From NCBI RefSeq assembly GCF_011065895.1, contig NZ_JAALCR010000003.1, positions 248,001 to 312,000 on the forward strand: a stretch of 64,000 bases of DNA, written 5' to 3'. Origin of the DNA: Paludisphaera rhizosphaerae (GTDB taxonomy: Bacteria; Planctomycetota; Planctomycetia; Isosphaerales; Isosphaeraceae). Of the stretch, positions 1,299 through 15,304 are shown piece by piece. The position numbers and the translations under genes were made by a program. Position 1 is the stretch's first letter, and each line of letters begins with the position of its first letter. The notes below the pieces were generated by a model, which was given only the letters and a program-made list of their open reading frames with translations, was not told where the DNA came from and did no database searches.

Positions 1299-3104
1299 AT
1301 GAGTGAGCGCGGTGGAAAGTCGTGGAGAGAGCGGTGGGGGGACCCGATCCTGGGCCTTCTGATCGCCTCGGCCACGCTGGTCTTGCTGATCGCGACGCTG
1401 AACGACTACGGCATGGCGTGGGACGAGGGGTTCACGGTCGAGCGCGAGGAACGCCTGCGGGAATGGTTCGCGAAGGTCGGCGGCGCGGGGTCGTCCGTTC
1501 GCCATGCGCGAGCGATGAGTCTCTCAAAGCTCGAGTCGCGCGGATCGTACCTGGCGAAGGCGGGGGCCTCGGCCTCGTCGCCCTGGAGCCGCGAGTCGTT
1601 GCGGTTCTACTGGCCGTTCGCGCGGGAGGAGCCGAACGGGCACCCTCCTCTCTATGCGCTTCTTGGGCTGGCCGGCTGGGCGGTGAGCCATGACTCTCTG
1701 TCGCCTCCAGGCTCGTACCGGCTTGGACCGGCGGCGCTGTTCGCGGCGACGGTCGGCGTCGTCTATGTCTTCATGGCTCGGCGCTACGGCCGAGTTGCGG
1801 GGCTCATGGCGTCGTTCGGCCTGGTCGCGATGCCCCGGATGTTCGCCCACGCGCACCTGGCCTCGTACGACGTGCCGACACTCTGCTTCTGGTTCCTGGC
1901 CGTGGTCGCATTCCTGAAGGCCGTCGAGCCGTCGCCCGGGAATCGTTGGTGGCTCTGGACGGCGGCCTTCGGCCTCGCCTGGGGCTGCGGGATGGCCACC
2001 AAATTCACCGGCTGGTTCATCCCGTTCCCACTGATCGCCTGGAGTCTTTTCTACCTCGACCGGCGCTCCGTGCGAGTTCTGGCCTTGGGGGGCGTGGTCG
2101 CCGCCCTTGTGGTCTACGCCACGAACCCGACCTGGTGGGCGGAGCCGATCCAGGGCCTGCGCGCGTTCCTCGTCTCGAACCTGACCCGGGACCAACTGCG
2201 CCCGATCCCGACCTACTTCCTCGGGCGGCTCTACCGGTTCTCGCTCCCCTGGTACAACACCCTGGTCATCACGGCAATCGTGACGCCTCCATTGACCCTG
2301 GCGCTGGCGCTGCTCGGCAGCGCCCGGGTCGTCTCGGGCCGGTTCCGCGACCGCGAGGGGACGCTCTTATTCCTCTGCTGGGTGTTCTTCCTGGTCCTCC
2401 GCGCCCTACCGAACGCGCCTGGGCACGACGGCGAACGCCAGTTCCTGACGGCGTTCGTGTTCCTGGCCTGTCTGTCGGGAATCGGCCTGACCGCCCTCGG
2501 GGAATGGATCGGCCGCATCCCCGGCCTCGACCGCCCCGCCCTCGGGCGAGGATGTCAGGCCATAGCCCTGACCGCCGCGCTGGCCCTCGGAGGGTGGAGC
2601 ACCTGGCGATATCACCCGCTGCAACTGTCGTACTTCAACGCCCTGATCGGCGGGCTCTCGGGCGCGACGCGGGCGGGAATCGAACCGACCTACTACTGGG
2701 AAGCCGTAACGCCGGACGTGCGCGACTGGCTCAATACGCATACGGACGAGGGACGGACGATCGCCTTCTGCTTCCCGGCGGTGACCTTCGAGTACCTTCA
2801 CGATTGGGGCCAGCTCAAACCCTTGCCCCTGATCCTGCCCGCAACGCCTCCCCAGTGGTACGTGGTGATGAACCGCACGGGGCATCTGCTGTTCCAGTCC
2901 ATGAGCCTCCCGCGGTTCCTGCTGGAGCACGGCAAGCCGGCTTACGTCAAGTTCAGCAGCGCCGCGCCGGATGTGCCGCTCGTCCTGATCTATTCCGGCG
3001 TCGAGGTCTCCGCGGCCGACCTCATCCTGAAATGGTCGGACGGCAAGCAGCCGAATTCAGCCAAGGATGAACACCGATCAGCCCCAGATTTGAAGACGCC
3101 CTGA
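1299..3104 (+). CDS. GT-C fold membrane glycosyltransferase (family 39/ArnT-like)
   Basis: This is a polytopic inner-membrane glycosyltransferase of the PMT/ArnT class, which moves a sugar from a polyprenyl-phosphate donor to a periplasmic acceptor. A first membrane helix (about residues 15-34) is followed at 41-45 by WDEGF, matching the acidic Asp-Glu catalytic position in the first periplasmic loop of GT-C enzymes. Many more helices follow up to about residue 420, then a soluble C-terminal domain of about 180 residues. The 601-residue length suits the family. The start lacks a strong ribosome binding site (GGGAA about 12 nt upstream). It is a single gene that ends 204 nt before the sigma-factor fusion. 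Substrate cannot be read from sequence; lipid- or protein-linked envelope glycan is likely. Confidence 0.8.
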   Translation: MSERGGKSWRERWGDPILGLLIASATLVLLIATLNDYGMAWDEGFTVEREERLREWFAKVGGAGSSVRHARAMSLSKLESRGSYLAKAGASASSPWSRESLRFYWPFAREEPNGHPPLYALLGLAGWAVSHDSLSPPGSYRLGPAALFAATVGVVYVFMARRYGRVAGLMASFGLVAMPRMFAHAHLASYDVPTLCFWFLAVVAFLKAVEPSPGNRWWLWTAAFGLAWGCGMATKFTGWFIPFPLIAWSLFYLDRRSVRVLALGGVVAALVVYATNPTWWAEPIQGLRAFLVSNLTRDQLRPIPTYFLGRLYRFSLPWYNTLVITAIVTPPLTLALALLGSARVVSGRFRDREGTLLFLCWVFFLVLRALPNAPGHDGERQFLTAFVFLACLSGIGLTALGEWIGRIPGLDRPALGRGCQAIALTAALALGGWSTWRYHPLQLSYFNALIGGLSGATRAGIEPTYYWEAVTPDVRDWLNTHTDEGRTIAFCFPAVTFEYLHDWGQLKPLPLILPATPPQWYVVMNRTGHLLFQSMSLPRFLLEHGKPAYVKFSSAAPDVPLVLIYSGVEVSAADLILKWSDGKQPNSAKDEHRSAPDLKTP

Positions 3105-3110
3105 AGCATC

Positions 3111-3170
3111 ACTGAGGGCTGCGTTTCGAGGACGAAGTCGGTGCCGATGCTCGGCTGCGCGACGCTCCGC
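3111..3170 (-). pseudogene. Decayed copy of the 3' end of the secreted-protein gene at 6090-6626
   Basis: On the minus strand this piece reads RSVAQPSIGTDFVLETQP, which aligns with the last residues RTTPQPTLKTYFVLETQP of the intact gene beyond the sigma-factor fusion. At DNA level 26 of the first 28 bases match (3111-3138 against 6088-6115), with decreasing similarity over about 30 more. The stop codon TGA of the intact gene has become TCA here. The two copies are in the same orientation and flank the sigma/thioredoxin gene, so this looks like a scar of duplication or insertion, not a working gene. Confidence 0.65.
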
Positions 3171-3308
3171 GGCCGCAAGGCTGGCGGAAAGCGCCCGGGC
3201 GGGTAATTGGTGTCGACCAGGCGGCGAATTCGAAGAAAGTTCGTGAGGCCCCGGAGCAGTCGGATACTACACGGAGGGATAAGCGACTCGAAGAGAGGGA
3301 CGAACGGT

Positions 3309-6083
3309 ATGGTGGGCGGCTCGGCGGAGGAGGCACGACGGTTGTTCCGGGTCGGGACGCTCGGTGCGATCCCGGACGGCCGGCTCCTGGATCGGTTCCT
3401 CTCCGAGAATGAGGAAGCGGCCGAAGCGGCGTTCGAAGAACTGGTGAGACGACACGGCCCGATGGTCTTCCGCGTTTGTCGGGGCGTCCTCCGAAATCCG
3501 CAAGACGCCGAGGACGCCTTCCAGGCGGCCTTCCTCGCCCTGGCGACGCGGGCGGCGACGATCCGTCAGCGCGAGTCGGCGGGGAGTTGGCTGTTCGGCG
3601 TCGCTCGCCGAGCGGCCCTGCGGCTCCGTCGCTCCGCCGCGAGGAGAAACTCGGCCCACCGGGCCGCGGCCGAGCGGTCGCCGAGGTGTTACCTACCTCC
3701 TCCTGACGACGAGCTGGGCCCTGAGGTCCTTTTCGAGGAGATCGACGCCCTCCCCGGGCGCCTCCGCGAATCGGTGATCCTCTGCTGCATAGAGGGCCTG
3801 ACCTACGATGCCGCGGCGGATCGACTCGGCCTAACCGAGGCCGCCGTGCGCGGCCGACTGGCCCGCGCGAGGGAAAAGCTGCGCAGACGCCTTCTGCGAC
3901 GAGGAATATCGGTGCCGATCGGCCTGCTGCTGACCGCTCTGGCCCGTCCGGCCGAGGCCGTCCCCCTCGCTCTGCTGCGCTCAACCACGAGGATCTCGCT
4001 CGGGCTCGCGACGGGTAGTTCCATCGCGGCCCTGGCCAGGGGAGTTTTGCAATCCATGATGCTTCATCAATTGAAAAACGTCGCCGTCGCATCGCTCGCC
4101 CTCTCGGCCGGACTTTGGGCGTTAGGGGCATTGGCCTCGACGGAGAAGCCTCACGGCCAGGAAACGCCGCCGGCCGCGCCGCCCCAACAGGCTCCCAGGA
4201 CGAAGCCCGCCCACCCCAGCTACCGGATGGTGGGGACGGTGCGCGTCGAGGGGACCGGAGAACCCGTCGCCGGCGCGACGATCCAGGTCTTCGCGGGAGA
4301 CAGCGGCCCCGATCACCGGGGCGACCTTCGAGAGGCGCAGTCCGACGCCGAGGGCCGATATTCCATCGACCTCGGCAAGGGCTACGTGCGCGCGTGGACG
4401 ATCCGGGCCCCGGCCGGCTACTGGGCCCCTGACAACGGCAAGAATATCGAGGACGTCGTGCTCAACGAGGCCCAGCCGGAGCATAGGAAGGATTACGTGG
4501 TCCGTCGCGCCCCCACCTGGCACTTCCAGGTTCTTCGACCTGGGCAAGTTGAACCGAGGCCGGAGCAAATGATCGCGGGCCAGTTCCTGGGAACCGCCGA
4601 TCCGACAGGGCTCCTCCGGGTGACGGTCCCCGACGAGTCGAAGGACGTCCAGGTCGGCGTTTCAAAAACGCCCGGAGGCTTACCCTCAGTCAGGGCGGCC
4701 GCGATCGAGCGTCAGGACAGGGGATTTCGCCCCGACGCCGTGGCGTCGATCGAAAAAGAGGAAGGCGACCCCGTCCGCTTCCGGCTCGTGGACAAGGACG
4801 GCAAAACCGCCTCGCTGGTCCAGGCTCCGAGCCGGTGTCGGCTCGAACCGAGAATCGAGAACGGCCGGGTCGTCGTTCAGATCCTGATGCTGGAGCCGAA
4901 CGCGCAGGACTACGGCGACCTGATCGGCAAGGTTGTCGACGGCTCCGGTGGGCCGATCGCGACTGCGCGATTGGCCTTGGTCTGGCATGACGAGCAGAAT
5001 GGATCGAGCGGGATGTCCGACTTCACGGCGACCACGGACGATCGGGGCGAGTTCCGCCTCCGCTCGATCCCCCGGAGGTCCCCCGTCGGGAAGTCGGTCA
5101 AGATCGGCCTGGTCGTGACGAAGGACGGTTTCGCCGGGGTCGACGCACCACCCTTTCACTTCGCCCCCCCGACCGGCGAGACAACACAAACCGCGCCGAC
5201 GATCACCCTGAACCCCGGGACGACCTTCAACGGCGTCGTCCTCGACCCCGAAGGAAAACCCGTCGAGGGAGCCTGGATCGAGCCGGGCGGCTCTTATGCA
5301 GCCCGCAGCCAGTTCACCAAAACGGACGCGGCCGGTCGGTTCGCCGTGAAAAACCTTTCCGAGGGGATGGCGTCGCTCAACATCCACTATGGGAAGCTCT
5401 TAGCGGGGGGGAAGTTCCCGGCATTCCGGGACTCGGCACCGATCACCATCAAGCTCGCCCCTGCACCAGACGCCGCGGCGATGACGGCGCGTGCGGAGGC
5501 GGCGAAGGCGGCCCGCGAGAAATACAAGTCCCTCGCTATCGGCGCCCAAGCGCCGGAGTTGAACGCCGGCGACTGGTCCGACGGCCGACCGCGCTCGCTG
5601 ACGGAGCTTCGGGGGAAAATCGTCTTCCTCAACTTCTGGGGTGCCTGGTGCACGCCCTGCGTCGCCGAGTTGCCGACTCTGGAAAAACTTCGCGCCGAGT
5701 ATGAGCCGAAGGGCGTCGTGTTCCTGACGATCCATACACCGGGCGAGCCGTCGAAGGACGCCGTCCGCACGCTGCTGGAGAAGAACAAGGCAACATCCTT
5801 GCCGTTCGCCTTCGACCGCGACCTGGAAAGCCTGGAGCGTCAAGAAGACGGCGCGACTGCCCGCCTTTACGGCGTTCACGGGTTTCCGACGACCATTGTC
5901 ATCGACCGCGTCGGCAAGGTTGCCTTCCGCACTAACGACTCGGACATTCGCCCCCGGATGGAGGCCATCATCAAGGAGTTGGGCATCGATCCGCAGAAGG
6001 CAGACCAGCAGGCTTTCCTCCGAGTCGGTGAGAGGCTATATCGCTCGGCGATCGAGGAAGCGTTGAAGTCCCCGTCGCCGTGA
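3309..6083 (+). CDS. ECF sigma factor fused to membrane helix, Cna-B-like domains and thioredoxin
   Basis: The 924-residue protein joins a transcription factor to an exported redox domain. Residues about 40-110 are sigma-70 region 2 (DAEDAFQAAFLALATRA, GSWLFGVARR) and 140-195 region 4 (LTYDAAADRLGLTEAAVRGR). A hydrophobic segment at about 257-276 is followed by a Pro-rich linker. Three carboxypeptidase-regulatory/Cna-B-like segments follow (begins VGTVRVEGTGEPVAGA near 308; later LIGKVVDGSGGPIATA and FNGVVLDPEGKPVEGA). The C-terminal 150 residues are a TlpA/redoxin-type thioredoxin with WCTPC, Cys781 and Cys784. The start at 3309 has AGAGGGA about 9 nt upstream; an in-frame start 34 codons earlier adds only basic residues. 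ECF factors with long C-terminal extensions are known in Planctomycetes. The thioredoxin could report envelope redox state to the sigma domain, which is inference. No separate anti-sigma gene is adjacent. Confidence 0.9.
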   Translation: MVGGSAEEARRLFRVGTLGAIPDGRLLDRFLSENEEAAEAAFEELVRRHGPMVFRVCRGVLRNPQDAEDAFQAAFLALATRAATIRQRESAGSWLFGVARRAALRLRRSAARRNSAHRAAAERSPRCYLPPPDDELGPEVLFEEIDALPGRLRESVILCCIEGLTYDAAADRLGLTEAAVRGRLARAREKLRRRLLRRGISVPIGLLLTALARPAEAVPLALLRSTTRISLGLATGSSIAALARGVLQSMMLHQLKNVAVASLALSAGLWALGALASTEKPHGQETPPAAPPQQAPRTKPAHPSYRMVGTVRVEGTGEPVAGATIQVFAGDSGPDHRGDLREAQSDAEGRYSIDLGKGYVRAWTIRAPAGYWAPDNGKNIEDVVLNEAQPEHRKDYVVRRAPTWHFQVLRPGQVEPRPEQMIAGQFLGTADPTGLLRVTVPDESKDVQVGVSKTPGGLPSVRAAAIERQDRGFRPDAVASIEKEEGDPVRFRLVDKDGKTASLVQAPSRCRLEPRIENGRVVVQILMLEPNAQDYGDLIGKVVDGSGGPIATARLALVWHDEQNGSSGMSDFTATTDDRGEFRLRSIPRRSPVGKSVKIGLVVTKDGFAGVDAPPFHFAPPTGETTQTAPTITLNPGTTFNGVVLDPEGKPVEGAWIEPGGSYAARSQFTKTDAAGRFAVKNLSEGMASLNIHYGKLLAGGKFPAFRDSAPITIKLAPAPDAAAMTARAEAAKAAREKYKSLAIGAQAPELNAGDWSDGRPRSLTELRGKIVFLNFWGAWCTPCVAELPTLEKLRAEYEPKGVVFLTIHTPGEPSKDAVRTLLEKNKATSLPFAFDRDLESLERQEDGATARLYGVHGFPTTIVIDRVGKVAFRTNDSDIRPRMEAIIKELGIDPQKADQQAFLRVGERLYRSAIEEALKSPSP

Positions 6084-6089
6084 CACGAC

Positions 6090-6626
6090 TCAGGGCTGCG
6101 TTTCCAGGACGAAGTACGTCTTCAAGGTCGGCTGAGGCGTCGTCCGCTCGTGCATCAACCCAAGATAGAGCCCTGGACCGATCAGGCGAATCTCATCGCG
6201 GTTCTGAGCGTAGACGCGCGAGGTGCCGGTGTAGTCGAGGATCAAGGACGGCTGACCGTCGAACCAACTCGTCCCCTGATATAGACGACCCTTGACGGCG
6301 GGGACCCCGAAGAAGCGGTTGACGGCGATCGTTCCAGAGGAGTCGACCACCTTCCCCTGCCAGATCAGCCGGCCGCCGGCGGACATGGCCGCGTTCCGGC
6401 GCGATCCCGGAGCCGGCAGAACCGTCCCCTTGACCTTCCCGGTCGGCAGGCCAGCCACACTCCCTTGCGTGTAGACGGCCTGCAACTGGGCCTCGTTCAT
6501 GCTCAACAAGCTGGAAACGCTCAACGGCTGAGCCGTCGCCTGCGCATGAGCCGTCGTAGTCGTGAAAACCGCCGAAACCAGGGCCGCGGCGATCAACGGG
6601 GGGATCGACAGACGAAGCGTGGCCAT
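6090..6626 (-). CDS. Small secreted protein of unknown function
   Basis: The 178-residue protein has a clear Sec signal peptide: hydrophobic core at about 8-22 and cleavage expected after AHA at 26-28. The mature part has Gly-rich beta-strand character (GRLIWQGKVVDSSGTIAV, RLYQGTSWFDGQPSLIL) and no cysteine. I do not recognise the family. It converges on the sigma/thioredoxin gene with 6 nt between stops. A decayed copy of its 3' end lies at 3111-3170 on the other side of that gene. No strong ribosome binding site precedes the ATG. Confidence 0.75.
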   Translation of the reverse strand: MATLRLSIPPLIAAALVSAVFTTTTAHAQATAQPLSVSSLLSMNEAQLQAVYTQGSVAGLPTGKVKGTVLPAPGSRRNAAMSAGGRLIWQGKVVDSSGTIAVNRFFGVPAVKGRLYQGTSWFDGQPSLILDYTGTSRVYAQNRDEIRLIGPGLYLGLMHERTTPQPTLKTYFVLETQP

Positions 6627-6829
6627 GAGGTCGGGCTCGCGAGGGCTGGGGTGGGAACCATGCGCAGCACAGGAACCTCGATCGGTCCCTCGTCAACCAC
6701 GGCTTGACGGTTCCAGCGAGAGAAAGCCCCGAAACCTCCGATGATCCGGCCTGACCAAGAGAATCGGGCCTGCCTGAGACGAAATGTCGCCTAAACCCTT
6801 CGTGGTCGCTTGGCCGGACGTCAGTCGGG

Positions 6830-6858
6830 TTGACAGCCCGGCCGACCCACGGTTAAAT
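6830..6858 (+). promoter_or_regulatory. Candidate sigma-70 promoter for the MBOAT cluster
   Basis: A perfect TTGACA at 6830-6835, a 17-bp spacer and TTAAAT at 6853-6858 (4 of 6 consensus positions). It is the only consensus -35 in this long intergenic region and points at the MBOAT cluster 400 nt downstream. Confidence 0.4.
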
Positions 6859-7014
6859 CGCCGCACCTGACCGGGACGCGTGCGAGCAACCGTTGCTGAA
6901 CCAGGAACGAAGGACTCGGCGCGGGGGAGAGATACCAGGATCCTTAAGAAATTTCAAGATAGAATTTCTCGCGAGGATCCGACAGGGATTTCAGGCGTAC
7001 CAAGGATGGTGACC

Positions 7015-7057
7015 GTTGCGGGGCGACCCGATTCAGGGATGGATCGGGCCCCGCAAC
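7015..7057 (+). repeat. Strong hairpin in the MBOAT leader
   Basis: Perfect 10-bp inverted repeat GTTGCGGGGC/GCCCCGCAAC with a further CCGAT/ATCGG stem inside, separated by a 3-nt bulge. There is no T-run after it, so it does not look like an intrinsic terminator. It could be part of a structured 5' leader. Confidence 0.45.
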
Positions 7058-7261
7058 CGTGACGAACTGGATCGCTCCCGGCGACCCATCCTTCCTTCTC
7101 AGGACGCCTCCGCTCCTATTGATCGAAACGCGACGCCCGACGGCGACGCGCTGAAGCTTCACCGGGCCGCCGTCGGCCCGGCGATTCAAGGATGAACGCC
7201 CAGCCGGCCTCGCGCCACCGCGAGTCGGCCGGGTCGAGCAGGTTCGAGGAAGGGACCGCCT

Positions 7262-8671
7262 ATGGGGCCGAACGTCGGAAACCCGAGCGCGTCACGCACG
7301 TCGCCCCACAGGACGTTTCGCCCACCGGCGCGTCCTGCGGTTGAGCGACGACGCGAATGGTTGAAGCGGTTGTACGCGGACGAACCGGCGAACTGCAAAC
7401 GAGCCCTCGTCCCGTTCCTCCGGAATCTGCTCTATTTCGGCCTGATCTTCGCAGTATGCCTGCAATACCGGATCGAGGGCCGCGCCTTCCAGCTCTTGCT
7501 TCAAGTGGCCGGTCTGGCGTTTCCGATCCACTACCTAGCTCCGTATCGCTGGAAGAAGGCCGTGTTCCTGGCGGCTTCGGTCGCCGGGTTGTTCCTGGTG
7601 TTCGGGACGGACGTCGGCGCGGTGATCGTCGCTTTTTCGGCGACGATGATCGGAATCGCCCGACTTCCCGTCTCGTGGAACCTCCGGGTCGGCCTGCTGA
7701 CGGCGTTGACGGTCTTTCTCACGTGCGGTCGGCCGATCGCGTTGTTCGAGGCGGTACCCTCGACGGTCTGGCCGGTGCTCGGCTCGATGTTCATGTTCCG
7801 CATGATCATCTACATGTACGAGTTGAAGCACGCGAAGAAGCCGGAGTCGCTCACCGACGCGGTCGGTTATTTCTTCCTGCTGCCGAACTACTGCTTCATG
7901 CTCTTCCCCGTCGTCGACTACCGGACCTGGCAACGCGGCTTCTTCGCCGCTCCGGTCCACGACGTCCAGCGCCGGGGGCTGGAGATGGTCTTTCGCGGGG
8001 TGGTGCAGCTGATCCTCTACCGGCTGATCGATCAAGAACTGCTGATCCCGTCGTCGGAGGTCCATGGTTTCTGGAGCCTGATCGGGTTCCTGACGTTCAA
8101 CTACCTGGTGTACCTCCAGGTCTCGGGACAGTTCCACGTCGCCTGCGGCATGTTGCACATGTTCGGCTATCAGCTTCCGGACACGCACCACCATTACCTG
8201 CTCGCGACGGGGTTCACCGACTACTGGCGCCGGATCAACATCTACTGGAAGGACTTCATGGTCCGACTGGTGTTCAACCCGGTCGTCTTCCGCCTCAAGA
8301 AGTGGCCGCAGCCCGTGGCGCTGTCGGCGGCGACGGTGGCGGTCTTCTTCGTGACCTGGCTGCTGCACGCCTATCAATCGTTCTGGCTGCGGGGCGACTG
8401 GGGCTTCACCGTCCCGGACGCCGTCTTCTGGAGCGTGCTGGGCGGCTTCGTGCTGGTGAACGTCCAGATGGACGCTCGCCGCGGGCCGGTCCGACCCAAG
8501 TCGAAACAGGCCGGCGACGCCGCTCCGCGGTTCGACGTCCGCGGGCAGGCGGTCCGCGGGCTCAAGATCGCCGCCACGTTCGCGACCATCACACTGCTGT
8601 GGTCGCTCTGGAACAGTCCGAGCCTCGCGGCCTGGTTCGAGTTACTGGCCCGCGGCCTTCAGGCGTCGTGA
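7262..8671 (+). CDS. MBOAT family membrane O-acyltransferase (DltB/AlgI-like)
   Basis: This 469-residue polytopic protein belongs to the membrane-bound O-acyltransferase superfamily, whose members pass acyl groups across the membrane to envelope glycans or lipids. About ten hydrophobic segments lie between residues 51 and 460. The family core is seen in YWRRINIYWKDFMVRLVFNP (321-340) and in WLLHAYQ (366-372), where His369 sits at the invariant catalytic histidine position. GAGGAAGGG precedes the ATG by about 7 nt. It is the first gene of a tight cluster: 22 nt to an SGNH hydrolase, then an adenylation enzyme and an acyltransferase. The MBOAT plus SGNH pairing matches DltB/DltD and AlgI/AlgJ logic, so transfer of an activated acyl or aminoacyl group to an extracytoplasmic acceptor is likely. 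Confidence 0.82.
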   Translation: MGPNVGNPSASRTSPHRTFRPPARPAVERRREWLKRLYADEPANCKRALVPFLRNLLYFGLIFAVCLQYRIEGRAFQLLLQVAGLAFPIHYLAPYRWKKAVFLAASVAGLFLVFGTDVGAVIVAFSATMIGIARLPVSWNLRVGLLTALTVFLTCGRPIALFEAVPSTVWPVLGSMFMFRMIIYMYELKHAKKPESLTDAVGYFFLLPNYCFMLFPVVDYRTWQRGFFAAPVHDVQRRGLEMVFRGVVQLILYRLIDQELLIPSSEVHGFWSLIGFLTFNYLVYLQVSGQFHVACGMLHMFGYQLPDTHHHYLLATGFTDYWRRINIYWKDFMVRLVFNPVVFRLKKWPQPVALSAATVAVFFVTWLLHAYQSFWLRGDWGFTVPDAVFWSVLGGFVLVNVQMDARRGPVRPKSKQAGDAAPRFDVRGQAVRGLKIAATFATITLLWSLWNSPSLAAWFELLARGLQAS

Positions 8672-8693
8672 CAGAGGGGGGAACCGAACGGTC

Positions 8694-9926
8694 ATGGCGC
8701 TCATCCAGACCACTTCGCTCCGTGCGGCCCGCATCAGCATGCTTCAGGCGGCGGCTCTCGTGGCGATCTCGCTGTTGCCGATCCCATCCGGCTGGGTGAA
8801 ATCTCACCGGCTGCTGGCCTCGGCGACCTCAAACCCGTCCGACCGGGCGGACGCCGACCACCATGCCACGGGCTACTACGAGGGCCTCGTCGGCGGCGCC
8901 GAGGGCCCCGGCGGGCGCGGCGAGTTGACGCTCAAGCTGATGGGCAAGCCCAACGGCTGGGTCCGGTTCAACGACGCCGGCGTCGTCCGCCACCTCAAGG
9001 CCGACTTCCTCCACTTCGAGCTGATCCCGAAGATGGACAGCGTCCTCTTCAGCCAGCCGTTCGTGACGAACTCGCACGGCATGCACAGCCCGGAGGTGAG
9101 CGTCGAGAAGCCGCCGGGCGTCTTTCGGATCGCCCTGCTCGGCGCATCGATGGATATGGGCTGGGGCGTGAAATACCAGGACGATTACGCTTACCAGCTT
9201 GAGGGGTGGCTGAACACCCACGCCCAGCATCAGGGCTTTTCCTCGAATCGCAAGTTCGAGGTCCTGAACTTCGCGGTGGCCGCCTACAGCCCGCTCCAAC
9301 GGCTGGAGTCGTTCCGCCGCAAGGCGAAGGAGTTCAAGCCCGACCTGGTGATCTTCTCGTCGACCATGCTGGACACGCGCCTGTCCGAGATCCACCTCTG
9401 CGACGCCTTCCGCATCAAGGCCGACCTGACCTACGACTTCGTCAAGGAGGTGGTCCAGCGGGCGGGGATCACCGACGCCGAGCGTCAGCTCGACACTCGC
9501 GGCGAATTGAAAGGCAAGGAGTCGATCAAGCGAAAGTTGGACCCCTACCACTGGGAGTTGTACGACGACGTCGTCACGACGCTCGCCGCCGACTGCCGGG
9601 CCTCCAACATCCCGCTGATGATGCTGATCATCCCCCGCGTGGGCAAGGACGCGGACCCGTCGGCTCGGGCCGAGTCGGTCGGCCGACTTCAGGCCATCGC
9701 GAGTCGGCACGCCCTGCCGATCTACGACCTGCTGGATACGTTCGACGAGATCGACCCGGCCGAGCTGGAAATCGCCGCCTGGGACGACCATCCCAACGCC
9801 CTGGGTCATCACCGACTGTTCCTGGCCCTGACTCACAAGCTGGTGACCGACCAGGACCGCTACCAGTTGCTGTTCCCCGGTCGCAAGGCGGTGGCCGAGT
9901 CGGCCCTGCCTCACGACCTCCCCTGA
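8694..9926 (+). CDS. SGNH-hydrolase-like protein, membrane-anchored partner of the MBOAT enzyme
   Basis: The 410-residue protein starts with a hydrophobic segment (about 18-31) that should act as signal or anchor, leaving an extracytoplasmic domain. The SGNH/GDSL block I appears as LLGASMDMGWG with the candidate nucleophile Ser152. The last block appears as WDDHPNALGHH with the candidate catalytic pair near Asp365 and His366. It sits 22 nt after the MBOAT gene and 1 nt before the adenylation gene. In the DltB/DltD and AlgI/AlgJ systems an SGNH-type protein works with the MBOAT protein to finish acyl transfer to the polymer, and this one probably has the same job. The polymer is unknown. Confidence 0.75.
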   Translation: MALIQTTSLRAARISMLQAAALVAISLLPIPSGWVKSHRLLASATSNPSDRADADHHATGYYEGLVGGAEGPGGRGELTLKLMGKPNGWVRFNDAGVVRHLKADFLHFELIPKMDSVLFSQPFVTNSHGMHSPEVSVEKPPGVFRIALLGASMDMGWGVKYQDDYAYQLEGWLNTHAQHQGFSSNRKFEVLNFAVAAYSPLQRLESFRRKAKEFKPDLVIFSSTMLDTRLSEIHLCDAFRIKADLTYDFVKEVVQRAGITDAERQLDTRGELKGKESIKRKLDPYHWELYDDVVTTLAADCRASNIPLMMLIIPRVGKDADPSARAESVGRLQAIASRHALPIYDLLDTFDEIDPAELEIAAWDDHPNALGHHRLFLALTHKLVTDQDRYQLLFPGRKAVAESALPHDLP

Positions 9927-9927
9927 C

Positions 9928-11556
9928 ATGACCGCCCCCGCAACCGCGCGCAACGGACCAGACCCCATGGACGGACGCCATCTCAGCCGATTGCTGGACG
10001 AGGCCGCCGCGTCGCGGCCGGACCGGACCGCCGTGGAGGACGAGCAGGGACGATCGCTGAGCTACGCCGAACTGGCCCGCGCCGCCGACCGCATCGCGGC
10101 CCGGCTCGCGCGCTGGGGCGTCGGCCGAGGCGACCGTGTCGGACTGTGGCTTCCCAAGAGCCTGGAATCGGTCGCGGCGATTCATGGGATCCTCCGCGCC
10201 GGGGCCGTCTACGTCCCCGTCGACCCGACCGGCCCCGCCGGCCGCGCCCAGGGGATCTTCGCCGACAGCGGGGCCCGCGTGGTCGTCGTCGCGGCGAAGC
10301 TCGCCCCGGCCCTGCGCGCCGCCTGGACCGACCGTCCCGACGCTCCGCGCTTGATCGTCGCCGAGGATGAGGCGGCGGTCGCCCCCCTGGTTGACGGCGA
10401 TTCCACCTGGGCCGACGTCCTCGCCGACGACGCTCCGGCCCCCCTGCCCCCCCCGCGAAGCCCCGACGACCTGGCGTACATCCTGTTCACGTCGGGATCG
10501 ACCGGGAAGCCGAAGGGGGTGATGCTGTCGCACGCCAACGCCTTCACGTTCCTGGATTGGTGCCGCGAGTCGCTGGGCCCCTGGGTCGACGGCGACCGCT
10601 ATTCCTCGCACGCGCCCTTTCATTTCGATCTGTCGATCTTCGACCTGTTCGTCTCGTGCCTGAACGCCGGGACGCTCGTCCTGATCGGCGAGACCCTTGC
10701 CAAGGAGCCCGCGGCGCTCGGCGACTACATCCAGGACAAGCGGATCGACGTCTGGTACTCGGCCCCCTCGATCCTCGCGATGATGACCGAGCACGGGCGG
10801 ATCGACCGCCCCGGCTTCCGGGTTCCGCGACTGGTCCTGTTCGCCGGCGAGGTCTTCCCCATCGCCCCGCTCCGCAAGCTGCGGACGCTCTGGCCGGACG
10901 CGAACCTCTGGAACCTCTACGGTCCCACCGAGACCAACGTCTGCACGGCGCTCGAGATTCCCCGCGTCATCCCCGACGAGCAGGAAGGGCCGTTCCCGAT
11001 CGGATTCGCCTGCCCGCCACTGGTGGGTCGGGTCGTCGATGAAGAAGGGAAAACGCTGGCGACGGGCGCGCTGGGCGAGTTGGTCATCGCCGGGCCGGGC
11101 GTGATGCGCGGCTACTTCGGCCGGGACGACCTCACCGCGGCGGCCTTCTTCACCGACGAGCACGGCGTGAAGTGGTATCGCACGGGCGACCTCGTCATCG
11201 ACGACGGAGCCGGCTGCTATAACTTCCACGGCCGCCGCGACCGCATGGTGAAGAAGCGCGGGTATCGGATCGAGCTGGGCGAGATCGAGTCGGCCCTCTA
11301 TCGCCACGACGGCGTCGACCGCGCGGCGGTGATCGCCGAGAGCGGGGACGAGGGGGTCGCGATCGCGGCGTTCGTCGCGCTCAAGCCCGAGGGGAAGAAG
11401 TCGCTGATCGCCATGAAGCGGCATTGCTCGATCCACCTGCCGAACTACATGATCCCCGACCGGATCACGTTCCTGGACCGTCTGCCGGCGACCTCGACGG
11501 ACAAGATCGACTACCAGAAGCTCAAGGCCCTGTCCGCGTCCGCCCCTGGAGAGTGA
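9928..11556 (+). CDS. Stand-alone adenylation enzyme (DltA-like, ANL superfamily)
   Basis: The 542-residue protein is an AMP-forming ANL enzyme. Core motifs are present in order: YILFTSGSTGKPKGVMLSH (184-202), LYGPTET, YRTGDLV, GRRDRMVKKRGYRIELGEIE and the C-terminal lysine motif STDKIDYQKL. FHFDLSIFDL (231-240) places Asp234 at the position that binds the amino group in amino-acid-activating A-domains, favouring an amino acid over a fatty acid. There is no fused carrier, condensation or thioesterase domain, and no carrier-protein gene fits in the 1-nt and 5-nt gaps beside it. In dlt operons the equivalent enzyme loads D-alanine on DltC. Here the acceptor must lie elsewhere or be a different molecule. 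An alternative ATG at 9967 would remove 13 residues. Confidence 0.85.
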   Translation: MTAPATARNGPDPMDGRHLSRLLDEAAASRPDRTAVEDEQGRSLSYAELARAADRIAARLARWGVGRGDRVGLWLPKSLESVAAIHGILRAGAVYVPVDPTGPAGRAQGIFADSGARVVVVAAKLAPALRAAWTDRPDAPRLIVAEDEAAVAPLVDGDSTWADVLADDAPAPLPPPRSPDDLAYILFTSGSTGKPKGVMLSHANAFTFLDWCRESLGPWVDGDRYSSHAPFHFDLSIFDLFVSCLNAGTLVLIGETLAKEPAALGDYIQDKRIDVWYSAPSILAMMTEHGRIDRPGFRVPRLVLFAGEVFPIAPLRKLRTLWPDANLWNLYGPTETNVCTALEIPRVIPDEQEGPFPIGFACPPLVGRVVDEEGKTLATGALGELVIAGPGVMRGYFGRDDLTAAAFFTDEHGVKWYRTGDLVIDDGAGCYNFHGRRDRMVKKRGYRIELGEIESALYRHDGVDRAAVIAESGDEGVAIAAFVALKPEGKKSLIAMKRHCSIHLPNYMIPDRITFLDRLPATSTDKIDYQKLKALSASAPGE

Positions 11557-11561
11557 CTCCC

Positions 11562-12566
11562 GTGAAGCACCTTGCTCGTCGCATCTTCACCTGGAAGTTC
11601 TACTTCTACGAGCTGCTCCTGCCGGGCCTGGGCGCGATCCGCCCTGAGCGGGCCGACGCGATCGTCCGCTCGGCCGGCTGGGGATCGACGTACCTCCGCC
11701 CCGGCCGTCGGTCGCGGTTGAAGACGGCCATGGATCGCGTCAACACGCTGCTGAAGCGCAGCGACGCCGACCGAGCCGACTGGCGTGCGCTCGCCGAGAG
11801 CGCCGCGAGATTCACCGCCCGCGACTACCCGCTCGACGGCGTCGGCGACGCCGAGGCCCTCGCCCGCTTCGACGTGTCGGGCTTCGACGACGTGCAAGAA
11901 GCGCTGGGCAAAGGCCGAGGCGTGATCCTCGTCGGCAGCCACATGGGGGCTCACATCGCCGGGATGCACTGGCTCTTCCGTCGCGGCCTGCCGATCCGGG
12001 CGCTCGTCCAGCGCCCCAAGCACGTCTCACGCGAGTTGAACCGTCGCTTCGACGAGGCCGTTTCACCGTATCCCCAGTCGGAGTTCTTCCTCCGACGCGG
12101 CCTCCCCGCGACGGCGGCCGTCGAGCGGATGATGCAGGCGCGGTCGGCTCTCCGCGACGGCCTGGCGCTCTACCTCAACGGCGACATCGTCTGGGAAGGC
12201 TCGAACACCCGGACCTGCCGGCTCCTCGGCCGCGACCACGAGTTCCTCGCCGTCTGGGCCGAGTTGGCCTGTCTCACCCGCGCCCCGGTCTTCTTCGTCT
12301 TCTGCCGACACCTCGACGCCGGCCGGTTCGCCATCGAGTTCAAGCGACTCGACCCGGCCACCCCGAACAAGCCCGACCTCCTTCTCGCCGCGTACCTGGC
12401 CGAGGTGGAAGCTCAGGTCGCCCGCGACCCCTCGGAAGCCGTCGCCTACCTCACCTGGCCCTGCTACACCGAAGCCCCCGAAACGGCCGTCGCCCGCTCC
12501 CGCCGCCAGGAGCCCCCGTCCCGCCGAATCGAAGCCCGCGAAGAGGCCGACGTGGTCTCGGCCTGA
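11562..12566 (+). CDS. Lysophospholipid-type acyltransferase (LpxL/HtrB-like) with altered active site
   Basis: The 334-residue protein resembles the lipid A acyltransferase group of the LPLAT superfamily. The central block GVILVGSHMGAHIAGMHW (120-137) corresponds to the family's H-x4-D/E catalytic motif, and SALRDGLALYLNGDIVW to the later substrate block. His127 is kept, but the acid four residues further is Ile132. This is either a divergent active site or a non-catalytic member. The GTG start at 11562 is chosen because it lies just after the upstream stop, is followed by a typical basic/hydrophobic N-terminus (VKHLARRIFTWKFYFYELLL) and avoids a 46-residue overlap. Its place at the end of the MBOAT cluster suggests work on a lipid or lipid-linked acceptor in the same pathway. 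Confidence 0.7.
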   Translation: MKHLARRIFTWKFYFYELLLPGLGAIRPERADAIVRSAGWGSTYLRPGRRSRLKTAMDRVNTLLKRSDADRADWRALAESAARFTARDYPLDGVGDAEALARFDVSGFDDVQEALGKGRGVILVGSHMGAHIAGMHWLFRRGLPIRALVQRPKHVSRELNRRFDEAVSPYPQSEFFLRRGLPATAAVERMMQARSALRDGLALYLNGDIVWEGSNTRTCRLLGRDHEFLAVWAELACLTRAPVFFVFCRHLDAGRFAIEFKRLDPATPNKPDLLLAAYLAEVEAQVARDPSEAVAYLTWPCYTEAPETAVARSRRQEPPSRRIEAREEADVVSA

Positions 12567-13853: not shown

Positions 13854-14056
13854 TTTCGCTCCCACTTCTTCGCATAAGCATCCACGCCTAGGTCGGCTCG
13901 ACGGTCCTCGTCGAGGAGTTCGCGTCCCGAACGTCGATTTCCGGCCTCATCGCCCTGATGGTCGGAATCGCTTTACTGACTCTCATCGCTCTCAACGATC
14001 AACCTAGCTATACTTCCAGGGGTTGTCCCATACTGATTCAAGTCTGGAATGACCCA

Positions 14057-15304
14057 ATGACCCCATCCTCCGTCCCGCCTCCCGCCTCCAAGACGAACAG
14101 CAGCGTTGATGATCGAACTTCAGAAGCGACCTCGACATTCTCCGAAGCCAAAGCCGTAGCCGACGAAGCAGGATCGAAGGATCGGAAGTCCCCCTCGCCC
14201 GGGCATGTCCCCGCGTTGGACGGTCTCCGGGCGTTCGCCGTTGTGGCGGTGATGTTCTTCCACGCCCGCGCGCCGTTTTCCGAATTGGGGATGCTGGGGG
14301 TCGACCTCTTCTTCGTCCTCAGCGGGTTCTTGATCACATCGCTCATGCTGGACGAGCACTCGCGGACGGGCCGGATCGACCTGATCAAGTTCTGGGCGAG
14401 GAGGTTCCTGCGGCTGGCCCCAGCGTACTGGCTCTATATCGCCGGAGTCACGCTGGCCATTGCATCGGGCCTGGGATGGACTCAGGAGAAGTACGGGTGG
14501 ACTGCCTCCGACCTCGTCAGATCGTTCTGGCTTTACTACTGCAACTACGCCCCCTGGCCGATCTGGGAGCACCAGGTCGTTACGGCTCACCTTTGGTCGT
14601 TGGCCGTTGAAGAGCAGTTTTATCTCCTCTGGCCGCTCATCCTGACGATGGCTTTGAGCCTCGGCCTGACTCGAAAATCGACGGCGATCGCCACCTGGGT
14701 TCTCGTCGCCGGGATGGCGGCCCGCAACATCCTCGTTCCGCCGTACATGGACCTGCGGCTCGAAATGCGGGGACTGGCGATCGTCGTGGGATGCGCCTTC
14801 GCGCTGAGCATGGCGGCCTGGCCAGGACTGGCGGAGGTTCTCGGCCGGCGACGGGTCGGCGAAACCGCCGCGGCGGCGGTGCTCTTGCTGCTGATCGTCG
14901 CAACGCTGGCCCTGCGACGGGGCGTCCTCGACATGCAGGTGCTCTGGGCCGGCGTCGTCCCCGTGCTCGCCGTCGGGCTCGCGATCGTCGTAGGCTACCT
15001 CTGGCGGCGGAGCGAGGGGCCTCTGGACTCAGCCCTGAGTTGGCGCCCCCTGGTCCGGATCGGCCGGATCTCTTACGGGCTCTACCTCTACCATTTTTTG
15101 GTGCTCCACCTCACAGGATTCGCGCTCCCCGGCATGGAGGCCTCACATCCCGGGCTCTACAAGCCGATCCGAATGGTGGTCTACCTGGTCGGGTCCTACC
15201 TGCTGGCCTACCTCAGCTACCGTTTCGTCGAGGCGGGATTTCTCCGTCTCAAATCGCATCTCCGACCGCACGGCGGCCACGAGCCAGCCAAGAGCGCTGC
15301 ATGA
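14057..15304 (+). CDS. Acyltransferase 3 family membrane protein (OafA/YrhL-like)
   Basis: The predicted 415-residue protein has about ten membrane helices and acyltransferase-3 signatures: LDGLRAFAVVAVMFFHARAP with the conserved histidine, GVDLFFVLSGFLITS, and the RR motif in FWARRFLRLAPAYW. This family O-acetylates or acylates exported glycans and lipids. A 50-residue polar, Ser/Thr-rich N-terminal tail precedes the first helix. The ATG at 14057 is chosen; an in-frame ATG at 13958 would add 33 residues ahead of it. It is the third acyl-transfer gene in this stretch, which supports an envelope-decoration theme. It is probably a separate transcript, since a terminator-like hairpin lies upstream. 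Confidence 0.85.
   Translation: MTPSSVPPPASKTNSSVDDRTSEATSTFSEAKAVADEAGSKDRKSPSPGHVPALDGLRAFAVVAVMFFHARAPFSELGMLGVDLFFVLSGFLITSLMLDEHSRTGRIDLIKFWARRFLRLAPAYWLYIAGVTLAIASGLGWTQEKYGWTASDLVRSFWLYYCNYAPWPIWEHQVVTAHLWSLAVEEQFYLLWPLILTMALSLGLTRKSTAIATWVLVAGMAARNILVPPYMDLRLEMRGLAIVVGCAFALSMAAWPGLAEVLGRRRVGETAAAAVLLLLIVATLALRRGVLDMQVLWAGVVPVLAVGLAIVVGYLWRRSEGPLDSALSWRPLVRIGRISYGLYLYHFLVLHLTGFALPGMEASHPGLYKPIRMVVYLVGSYLLAYLSYRFVEAGFLRLKSHLRPHGGHEPAKSAA

Follow-up and report, generated by a model that had tools for sequence, protein, structure and literature searches.

A conserved MBOAT-SGNH-adenylation-acyltransferase cluster in Isosphaeraceae and its probable supply by an unlinked prolyl carrier

Main finding

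A cluster of four genes is located in a 64,000-nt stretch of the Paludisphaera rhizosphaerae genome (contig NZ_JAALCR010000003.1, positions 248,001 to 312,000; hereafter the window), and it encodes a membrane acyltransferase of the MBOAT family, an SGNH transferase, a stand-alone adenylation enzyme and an LpxL-like acyltransferase (LPLAT). With a probability that we put at roughly 0.6, these genes supply the membrane and activation functions of an MBOAT-SGNH system for envelope acylation whose genes are scattered over the genome and whose acyl groups are delivered by a prolyl carrier. On the best reading of the predicted proteins, this system would put proline, or its pyrroline or pyrrole form, on an extracytoplasmic acceptor. 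The computed evidence consists of gene order, protein folds, the match of the specificity pocket, and the family assignments of carrier and dehydrogenase with the pattern in which they co-occur.

Conservation of the four-gene cluster

An earlier note, made from the sequence of the window alone, had described four packed genes with gaps of 22, 1 and 5 nt; all four open reading frames (ORFs) were found as described, on the same strand (Table 1). A total of 40 MBOAT loci were fetched and compared by tblastn, of which 39 came from Isosphaeraceae and one (L078) from another family; G, C and L numbers denote genomes, contigs and loci throughout. MBOAT relatives (E < 1e-20) were detected in 36/37 Isosphaeraceae genomes (a fragment in G036, none in G008). 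The order MBOAT-SGNH-adenylation was kept in 30 of the 39 Isosphaeraceae loci, and 3/39 were cut. Wherever the sequence of these 30 ordered loci continues, the LpxL-like gene comes next after the adenylation gene (26/26 clusters). The conservation check proposed in the earlier note thus came out in favor of the cluster, and the four-gene arrangement is not a matter of chance.

Table 1. Coordinates of the genes, sites and neighboring features (window positions unless a contig is named).
Feature	Position	Strand	Basis or remark
ORF 1, MBOAT-family membrane acyltransferase, 469 aa	7262..8671	+	AlphaFold + Foldseek
ORF 2, SGNH transferase, 410 aa, N-terminal hydrophobic segment	8694..9926	+	PF13472, below cut-off
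ORF 3, stand-alone adenylation enzyme, predicted L-prolyl-carrier ligase, 542 aa	9928..11556	+	TIGR01733
ORF 4, LpxL/LPLAT-like acyltransferase, 334 aa	11562..12566	+	PF03279; GTG start at 11562
MBOAT candidate catalytic pair Asn326, His369	8237-8239, 8366-8368	+	kept in 37/37 rows
GYYE motif, SGNH residues 60-63, candidate acyl-shuttle tyrosines	8871..8882	+	row conservation
Specificity pocket, residues 234-339: D234 L235 F238 Y277 L304 A306 L330 V338 C339	10627..10944	+	
Stand-alone carrier	C23:9600-9848 (L079:9600-9848)		PF00550
Dehydrogenase, prolyl-carrier-dehydrogenase-like	C49:22092-23231		away from cluster
AT3-type acyltransferase	13958-15304		PF01757
Single 958-aa ORF	3207-6083		

Six of the 39 loci (L050, L054, L059, L070, L075 and L077) carry an MBOAT-SGNH pair without an adenylation gene, and these pairs perhaps represent a sister acylation system with a different donor. 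A second SGNH gene, ~30% identical to that of the window, lies between MBOAT and SGNH in 21/39 loci (L047-L049, L051-L053, L055-L058, L060-L065, L071-L074 and L076); the genus of the window is without it. In L078 (G052, another planctomycete family), a 902-aa MBOAT-SGNH fusion-like ORF was observed, and the fetched stretch contained no adenylation gene.

The adenylation enzyme and its predicted substrate

ORF 3 passed the cut-off of the amino-acid adenylation model TIGR01733 (362.8 vs 317.4 bits), in agreement with the amino-acid-type enzyme of the earlier note. Its closest single PDB domain was 6o6e, L-proline--[L-prolyl-carrier protein] ligase, with 346 bits as compared with 232 bits for the best DltA; linear gramicidin synthase reached 422 bits in total, but over two domains together, the better of which scored ~218 bits alone. 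Over the pocket region, the PDB ranking again favored the prolyl ligase (129.9 vs 65.7 bits). The pocket was read at positions that we take to be equivalent to those mapped from GrsA, and 8/9 of them were identical between ORF 3 and 6o6e (D L [F/L] Y L A L V C); K526, a further specificity residue outside the 234-339 span, is not covered by the 6o6e alignment. In the alignment of 27 of the 30 available adenylation genes (L040, L049 and L069 were left out, L049 and L069 being cut), the pocket residues were invariant, save F238 at 26/27.

Named genomes were also scanned for adenylation loci, and the best 80 of 462 were divided into 31 near loci and 49 outside loci (~46-51% identity). In 37/49 outside enzymes the residues equalled those of 6o6e at all nine pocket positions. 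Because 6o6e is the closest single domain and the pocket agrees with it, the substrate is likely to be proline, not alanine, as far as homology can tell; alanine, which had been considered from the likeness to DltA, was dropped after the PDB match to the proline ligase.

These values also bear on a true Dlt system, in which D-alanine (or alanine) would be activated and placed on a surface polymer. Although the DltA model TIGR01734 does match ORF 3 (290.4 bits) and the MBOAT fold has DltB as its best match, the DltA score lies below the cut-off of 559.85, the carrier described below scores 19.7 bits with the dltC model TIGR01688 (cut-off 52.35), and the pocket ranking favors the prolyl ligase, so that a true Dlt system is highly improbable.

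A carrier of one family, unlinked in Isosphaeraceae and linked elsewhere

No carrier domain was detected within the cluster, and the sole PF00550 match of contig C3 lies ~235 kb off. A six-frame scan with two carrier profiles likewise detected a carrier neither in the 39 Isosphaeraceae cluster loci (L039-L077) nor in any of the 31 near loci, and a carrier concealed in the gaps was rejected on these grounds; in L078, one weak match (E 5.7e-3) was recorded. The stand-alone carrier that the earlier note had suggested looking for elsewhere in the genome does exist, on contig C23, as one of nine PF00550 matches in the genome. A close relative of it, unlinked to the cluster, was found in 37/37 Isosphaeraceae genomes, and at E < 1e-25 the gene occurred in 37/37 Isosphaeraceae vs 0/22 other genomes.

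A carrier of the C23 family was contained in 44/49 outside loci, where it lies within ~120 nt of the adenylation gene in 42/44 (in L208 and L210 it is ~3-3.6 kb away). Against the Isosphaeraceae carrier profile, the outside carriers scored E 4e-25 to 7e-36, as compared with 0.0019 or worse for six control carriers. When 34 outside carriers were in turn made into a profile and searched against the genomes, the unlinked gene was the top match in 37/37 Isosphaeraceae genomes (E 1.1e-31 to 2.9e-37), and the runner-up in the P. rhizosphaerae genome was an AcpP-like carrier (E 8.5e-4). Apart from generic hits (E > 1e-5), the only further matches were a second, partial copy in G015 (1.2e-26) and second carriers in G006 (3e-14) and G033 (5e-7); the best matches outside Isosphaeraceae came from G042 and G046 (~1e-19). 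Among the 59 genomes, an adenylation orthologue was present in 36/37 carrier-bearing vs 0/22 carrier-less genomes (G015, a contig-end fragment; G008, none). Homology and co-occurrence together suggest that this carrier is dedicated to the adenylation enzyme.

These counts bear on the carrier-free route raised in the earlier note; in such a route, the adenylation enzyme would pass its acyl-AMP to the membrane enzymes or to the LPLAT, which would stand in for the carrier. Such a route would explain why no carrier lies inside the 39 cluster loci or the 31 near loci, but since an unlinked carrier of the matching family occurs in 37/37 Isosphaeraceae genomes and a carrier of that family in 44/49 outside loci, the absence of a carrier no longer holds as a premise, and the route is scarcely credible. 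The note itself had named a carrier gene consistently linked in relatives as evidence against its proposal; such linkage was observed in the distant relatives and in none of the 39 Isosphaeraceae cluster loci. What stands of the proposal is a likely acyl transfer to the envelope, not a transfer without a carrier.

The unlinked carrier could instead serve ornithine-lipid (OL) synthesis, in which case the adenylation enzyme would have another carrier. In the P. rhizosphaerae genome, as in many Isosphaeraceae, the carrier gene adjoins olsH/olsG/olsI, and its product passes the cut-off of the NCBIfam ornithine-lipid acyl carrier protein (ACP) model NF052616 (165.5 vs 130 bits); moreover, the excerpts of PMC12493201 do not settle which donor provides the acyl group for OlsI. 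According to the same excerpts, however, OlsH requires neither ACP nor coenzyme A (CoA), and OL was formed in E. coli extract. OlsH was detected in 32/37 carrier-bearing and 6/22 carrier-less genomes: the carrier is retained in five genomes in which OlsH was not found (G016, G017 and G025, 93-99% complete; G015 and G022, less complete) and was itself not found in six genomes with OlsH. Together with the presence of the same family in the adenylation locus of 44/49 outside loci, this makes an ornithine-lipid role quite unlikely, and the name 'ornithine lipid biosynthesis ACP' probably reflects the neighborhood of the gene. A phosphodiesterase and OlsH were considered as the true partners of the carrier and rejected, because each is lacking from part of the carrier loci or carrier-bearing genomes.

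Outside adenylation loci

The 49 outside loci span Verrucomicrobia, Anaerolineae, Acidobacteria, Burkholderiales, rhizobia, Gemmatimonadota and others, and many are metagenome-assembled genomes (MAGs); seven belong to Mesorhizobium, so the loci are not independent. MBOAT was present in 39/49, mostly fused to an SGNH domain. In L212, from a planctomycete MAG, two split MBOAT-SGNH pairs are followed by the carrier and then by the adenylation gene (1477-9112), and this combination of split genes with a linked carrier may show an ancestral arrangement before the carrier moved. Among 104 neighbor proteins of the outside loci, glycosyltransferases were the commonest families (7/104) and sugar transferases accounted for 3/104, which is a mild hint of a glycan acceptor. 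Tryptophan-halogenase matches were found in 2/104 neighbor proteins (L186-L230), and halogenated pyrroles could accordingly be made in some strains.

A prolyl-carrier-dehydrogenase-like gene

Among the 49 outside loci, 40 encode an enzyme of the acyl-CoA-dehydrogenase fold, of one family; its gene immediately follows the adenylation gene in 36 of them and has a different place within the locus in the other 4. A profile built from ten of these dehydrogenases matched the prolyl-ACP dehydrogenase 4irn best in the PDB (554.8 bits), followed by the RedW-type 5zw0 (439 bits). Orthologues (E 1e-80) were present in 34/37 Isosphaeraceae vs 0/22 other genomes; an earlier subset at 1e-60 had given 19/19 vs 0/11. 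The P. rhizosphaerae enzyme, encoded on contig C49, also had 4irn as its best PDB match (397 bits). In 9 of the 34 genomes (G006, G012, G014, G022, G023, G025, G029, G031 and G035) the dehydrogenase gene lies within 13 kb of the carrier gene, and in the P. rhizosphaerae draft genome the two are on separate contigs, each within ~11 kb of a contig end.

A ligase, a carrier and a dehydrogenase of the predicted kinds belong to pyrrole natural-product pathways, and instead of modifying the surface the system might make a small pyrrole metabolite that is secreted. PigA and RedW models were the best for two outside dehydrogenases (below the cut-offs), and the halogenase neighbors mentioned above would fit such a metabolite as well. 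The presence of MBOAT in 39/49 outside loci, the rank of glycosyltransferases as the commonest neighbor families, and the near-universal occurrence of the set in one bacterial family, which is unusual for secondary metabolism, argue in the other direction, and we regard a secreted metabolite as very unlikely.

The MBOAT-SGNH transfer pair

ORF 1 was matched neither by Pfam nor by NCBIfam at E 0.001, and a direct PDB sequence search gave nothing up to E 1. It was assigned to the MBOAT family because its AlphaFold model, built on 37 orthologues (predicted local distance difference test [pLDDT] 86.8), matched DltB (8jem/6bug, the best Foldseek matches) and then PORCN and HHAT, with a best E of 2.5e-8 and template-modeling scores of ~0.5-0.6. 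The DltB fold is a feature shared with the Dlt system, and together with the gene order it upholds the Dlt-like MBOAT/SGNH/adenylation arrangement recognized in the earlier note. The MBOAT alignment comprised 37 of the 40 rows (L075 and L077, which are cut, and L078, from the other family, were left out). Its invariant Asn and His are what we take to be the catalytic pair of an MBOAT enzyme.

ORF 2 matched the GDSL/SGNH family weakly (PF13472, E 1.4e-4, below the curated cut-off). In an alignment of 30 rows, from which cut and divergent copies were excluded, Ser152, Asp364 and His366 were invariant (30/30), and by analogy with the SGNH family their roles would be catalytic. Tyr61 and Tyr62 of the GYYE motif, which follows the N-terminal hydrophobic segment, were also kept in 30/30 rows. 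A YY pair occurred in the first 110 aa of 28/28 divergent SGNH proteins (21 second copies and 7 from adenylation-less pairs). Most outside loci with MBOAT encode MBOAT and SGNH as one protein of ~770-970 aa, and GYY[E/D] was found in 37/38 large MBOAT proteins of the outside loci; L201, the exception, has a separate SGNH gene. The alignment of the fused proteins comprised 29/38. The model of the fused L202 protein (pLDDT 84) gave a DltB match and, separately, SGNH hydrolase matches; it was uninformative on the placement of GYYE, residues 535-549 having pLDDT < 50.

Excerpts of PMC12148441 place an acyl-shuttle tyrosine at a C-terminal motif in PatA and DltX. A conserved C-terminal tyrosine was not found on the MBOAT proteins studied here, in which any tyrosine in the last 40 aa occurred in just 6/37. 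From their conservation pattern, we propose the GYYE tyrosines as a candidate acyl shuttle.

The LpxL-like acyltransferase

ORF 4 passed the cut-off of PF03279 Lip_A_acyltrans (30.7 vs 22.3 bits), and its profile matched structures of phosphatidylinositol mannoside acyltransferase (E 3e-7). When all 26 LPLAT genes were aligned, His127 (26/26) and Asp208 (26/26) were invariant; the acid of the HX4(D/E) motif was missing, position 132 being I/L/V in 26/26. A dead enzyme was not concluded, since His127 and Asp208 remain invariant; a His/Asp pair acting as its own dyad is suggested in the excerpts of work on LpxM (PMC6286764).

LPLAT of the cluster type (E 4e-113 or better) was present in 33/37 Isosphaeraceae genomes and stood beside the adenylation gene in 31; in G022 and G029 the contig with the adenylation gene breaks off, so that the LPLAT gene is found on a different one. 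Among the candidates scored in the 22 other genomes (at most 36 per genome), no match went past 1e-15, and the 49 outside loci contained a single weak match, L228. The LPLAT therefore appears, by its distribution, to be an Isosphaeraceae-specific addition of uncertain role. Paralogues lie within ~200 nt of a stand-alone carrier in at least 8 of 19 genomes (G007:C116, G013:C9, G014:C4, G016:C160, G017:C1, G024:C2, G025:C1 and G031:C1), which suggests carrier-bound donors. The nearest known idea for such a protein may be AlmG of V. cholerae, as far as the excerpts of PMC3783018 and PMC11631085 go.

A branch of the AlmEFG kind would have the LPLAT put a carrier-bound amino acyl group on a lipid, with the MBOAT-SGNH pair performing a separate O-acylation. 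The position of LPLAT directly after the adenylation gene in all evaluable clusters and the paralogues near carriers speak for it, as does the V. cholerae precedent, in which, according to the excerpts of PMC3783018, glycine is attached to lipopolysaccharide (LPS) by means of an adenylation enzyme, a carrier and AlmG, an LPLAT protein. Across the 49 outside loci, however, MBOAT is kept in 39 and LPLAT has its one weak match, and the adenylation pocket is of the proline type; this branch is rather unlikely.

Proposed mechanism

Each reaction of the following scheme, together with the acceptor, the shuttle and the role of LPLAT, is what we infer from these comparisons. The adenylation enzyme would activate L-proline and charge the small carrier encoded on C23, and the dehydrogenase encoded on C49 would probably oxidize the carrier-bound proline, yielding a pyrroline- or pyrrole-2-carboxyl thioester. 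The MBOAT would then draw the acyl group from the carrier and through the membrane, and the SGNH protein would complete the transfer to an extracytoplasmic acceptor, for which a glycan is the likeliest candidate; the GYYE tyrosines may serve as a relay in this step. The LpxL-like protein is possibly a second, lipid-directed consumer of a carrier-bound acyl group.

Several observations weigh against this scheme. The carrier and dehydrogenase genes are absent from the examined Isosphaeraceae clusters, and their pairing with the cluster rests on homology and co-occurrence, for which Fisher values are only descriptive because the genomes share ancestry. To these are added the ornithine-lipid neighborhood and NCBIfam name of the carrier and the two outside dehydrogenases that score below the PigA and RedW model cut-offs. 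No carrier was detected in L187 (cut by a contig end), L194, L219 and L222, and L182 gave a weak match only. For the P. rhizosphaerae dehydrogenase, the second PDB match was a 'butyryl-CoA dehydrogenase' entry (325 bits), above RedW (293 bits), and the gene was not found in G020 (92% complete), G026 and G036. G008 (85% complete) has carrier and dehydrogenase without an adenylation orthologue or MBOAT. Finally, the MBOAT-SGNH pairs without an adenylation gene (6/39) imply that such pairs may take other donors.

A broader proposal, which we advance tentatively and at somewhat less than even odds, is that of a widespread undescribed envelope decoration in Planctomycetota, Proteobacteria, Acidobacteria, Gemmatimonadota, Verrucomicrobia and Anaerolineae, in which activated proline would be oxidized while bound to its own carrier, giving a pyrroline or pyrrole acyl group that an MBOAT-SGNH enzyme, usually a single fused protein, would export; Isosphaeraceae would have split the loci and added a lipid-directed LPLAT branch. 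If true, a prolyl/pyrrolyl carrier would become the third donor of MBOAT-SGNH surface acylation, besides acyl-CoA for acetyl and DltC for D-alanine, and a module of pyrrole antibiotics would be tied to envelope chemistry across many phyla. A near-universal Isosphaeraceae gene set would gain a function, a carrier name that is likely based on context only would be corrected, and an acyl-tyrosine shuttle could be tested where its usual place is empty.

Neighboring genes

The flanking oxidoreductase and ExoVII genes were rejected as pathway members, since no locus outside the genus has them, with the exception of L052 for ExoVII. The AT3 and PMT proteins near the cluster were rejected as well, being present at no other locus; the AT3-type acyltransferase gene lies ~1.4 kb downstream of the cluster and was not found at the relatives' loci. 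Upstream in the window, the 958-aa ORF combines an extracytoplasmic function (ECF) sigma factor, carboxypeptidase-regulatory repeats and a redoxin domain.

Comparison with known systems

Dlt D-alanylation (DltABCD, DltX) shares with the predicted system an adenylation enzyme, a small carrier, a DltB-fold MBOAT and an SGNH transferase; the present system differs in its proline-type pocket, its carrier outside the operon, its scores below the DltA and DltC cut-offs, and the added dehydrogenase and LPLAT. The prolyl-carrier loading and oxidation module, which we take to be represented by PltF/PltL/PltE and RedM/RedO/RedW, shares the proline adenylation pocket and the stand-alone carrier, and perhaps the prolyl-carrier dehydrogenase; here, the module would be coupled to MBOAT-SGNH instead of natural-product enzymes, and it lies off-cluster in Isosphaeraceae. 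No recognizable description of an MBOAT-SGNH system with a prolyl carrier was found in open-licence PMC papers, which is weak evidence of absence.

The OlsH/OlsI/OlsG locus of planctomycetes, as described in the excerpts of PMC12493201, adjoins the carrier, but its enzymes differ from those of the cluster, and carrier and OlsH each occur without the other. AlmEFG glycine modification of V. cholerae LPS (PMC3783018, excerpts) has in common an adenylation enzyme, a carrier and an LPLAT-type transferase, whereas the cluster has an MBOAT-SGNH pair and a proline-type pocket; among the 60 of 147 PDB matches listed, no molecule was named AlmE. PatA/PatB and other MBOAT-SGNH O-acetyltransferases, as far as covered by the excerpts of PMC12148441, share the MBOAT and SGNH proteins, the invariant MBOAT His and the SGNH Ser/Asp/His. 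They differ from the system proposed here in that its donor is predicted to be a carrier thioester instead of acyl-CoA, and in that its candidate shuttle tyrosines, in GYYE, are located on the SGNH side rather than at the C-terminus of the MBOAT.

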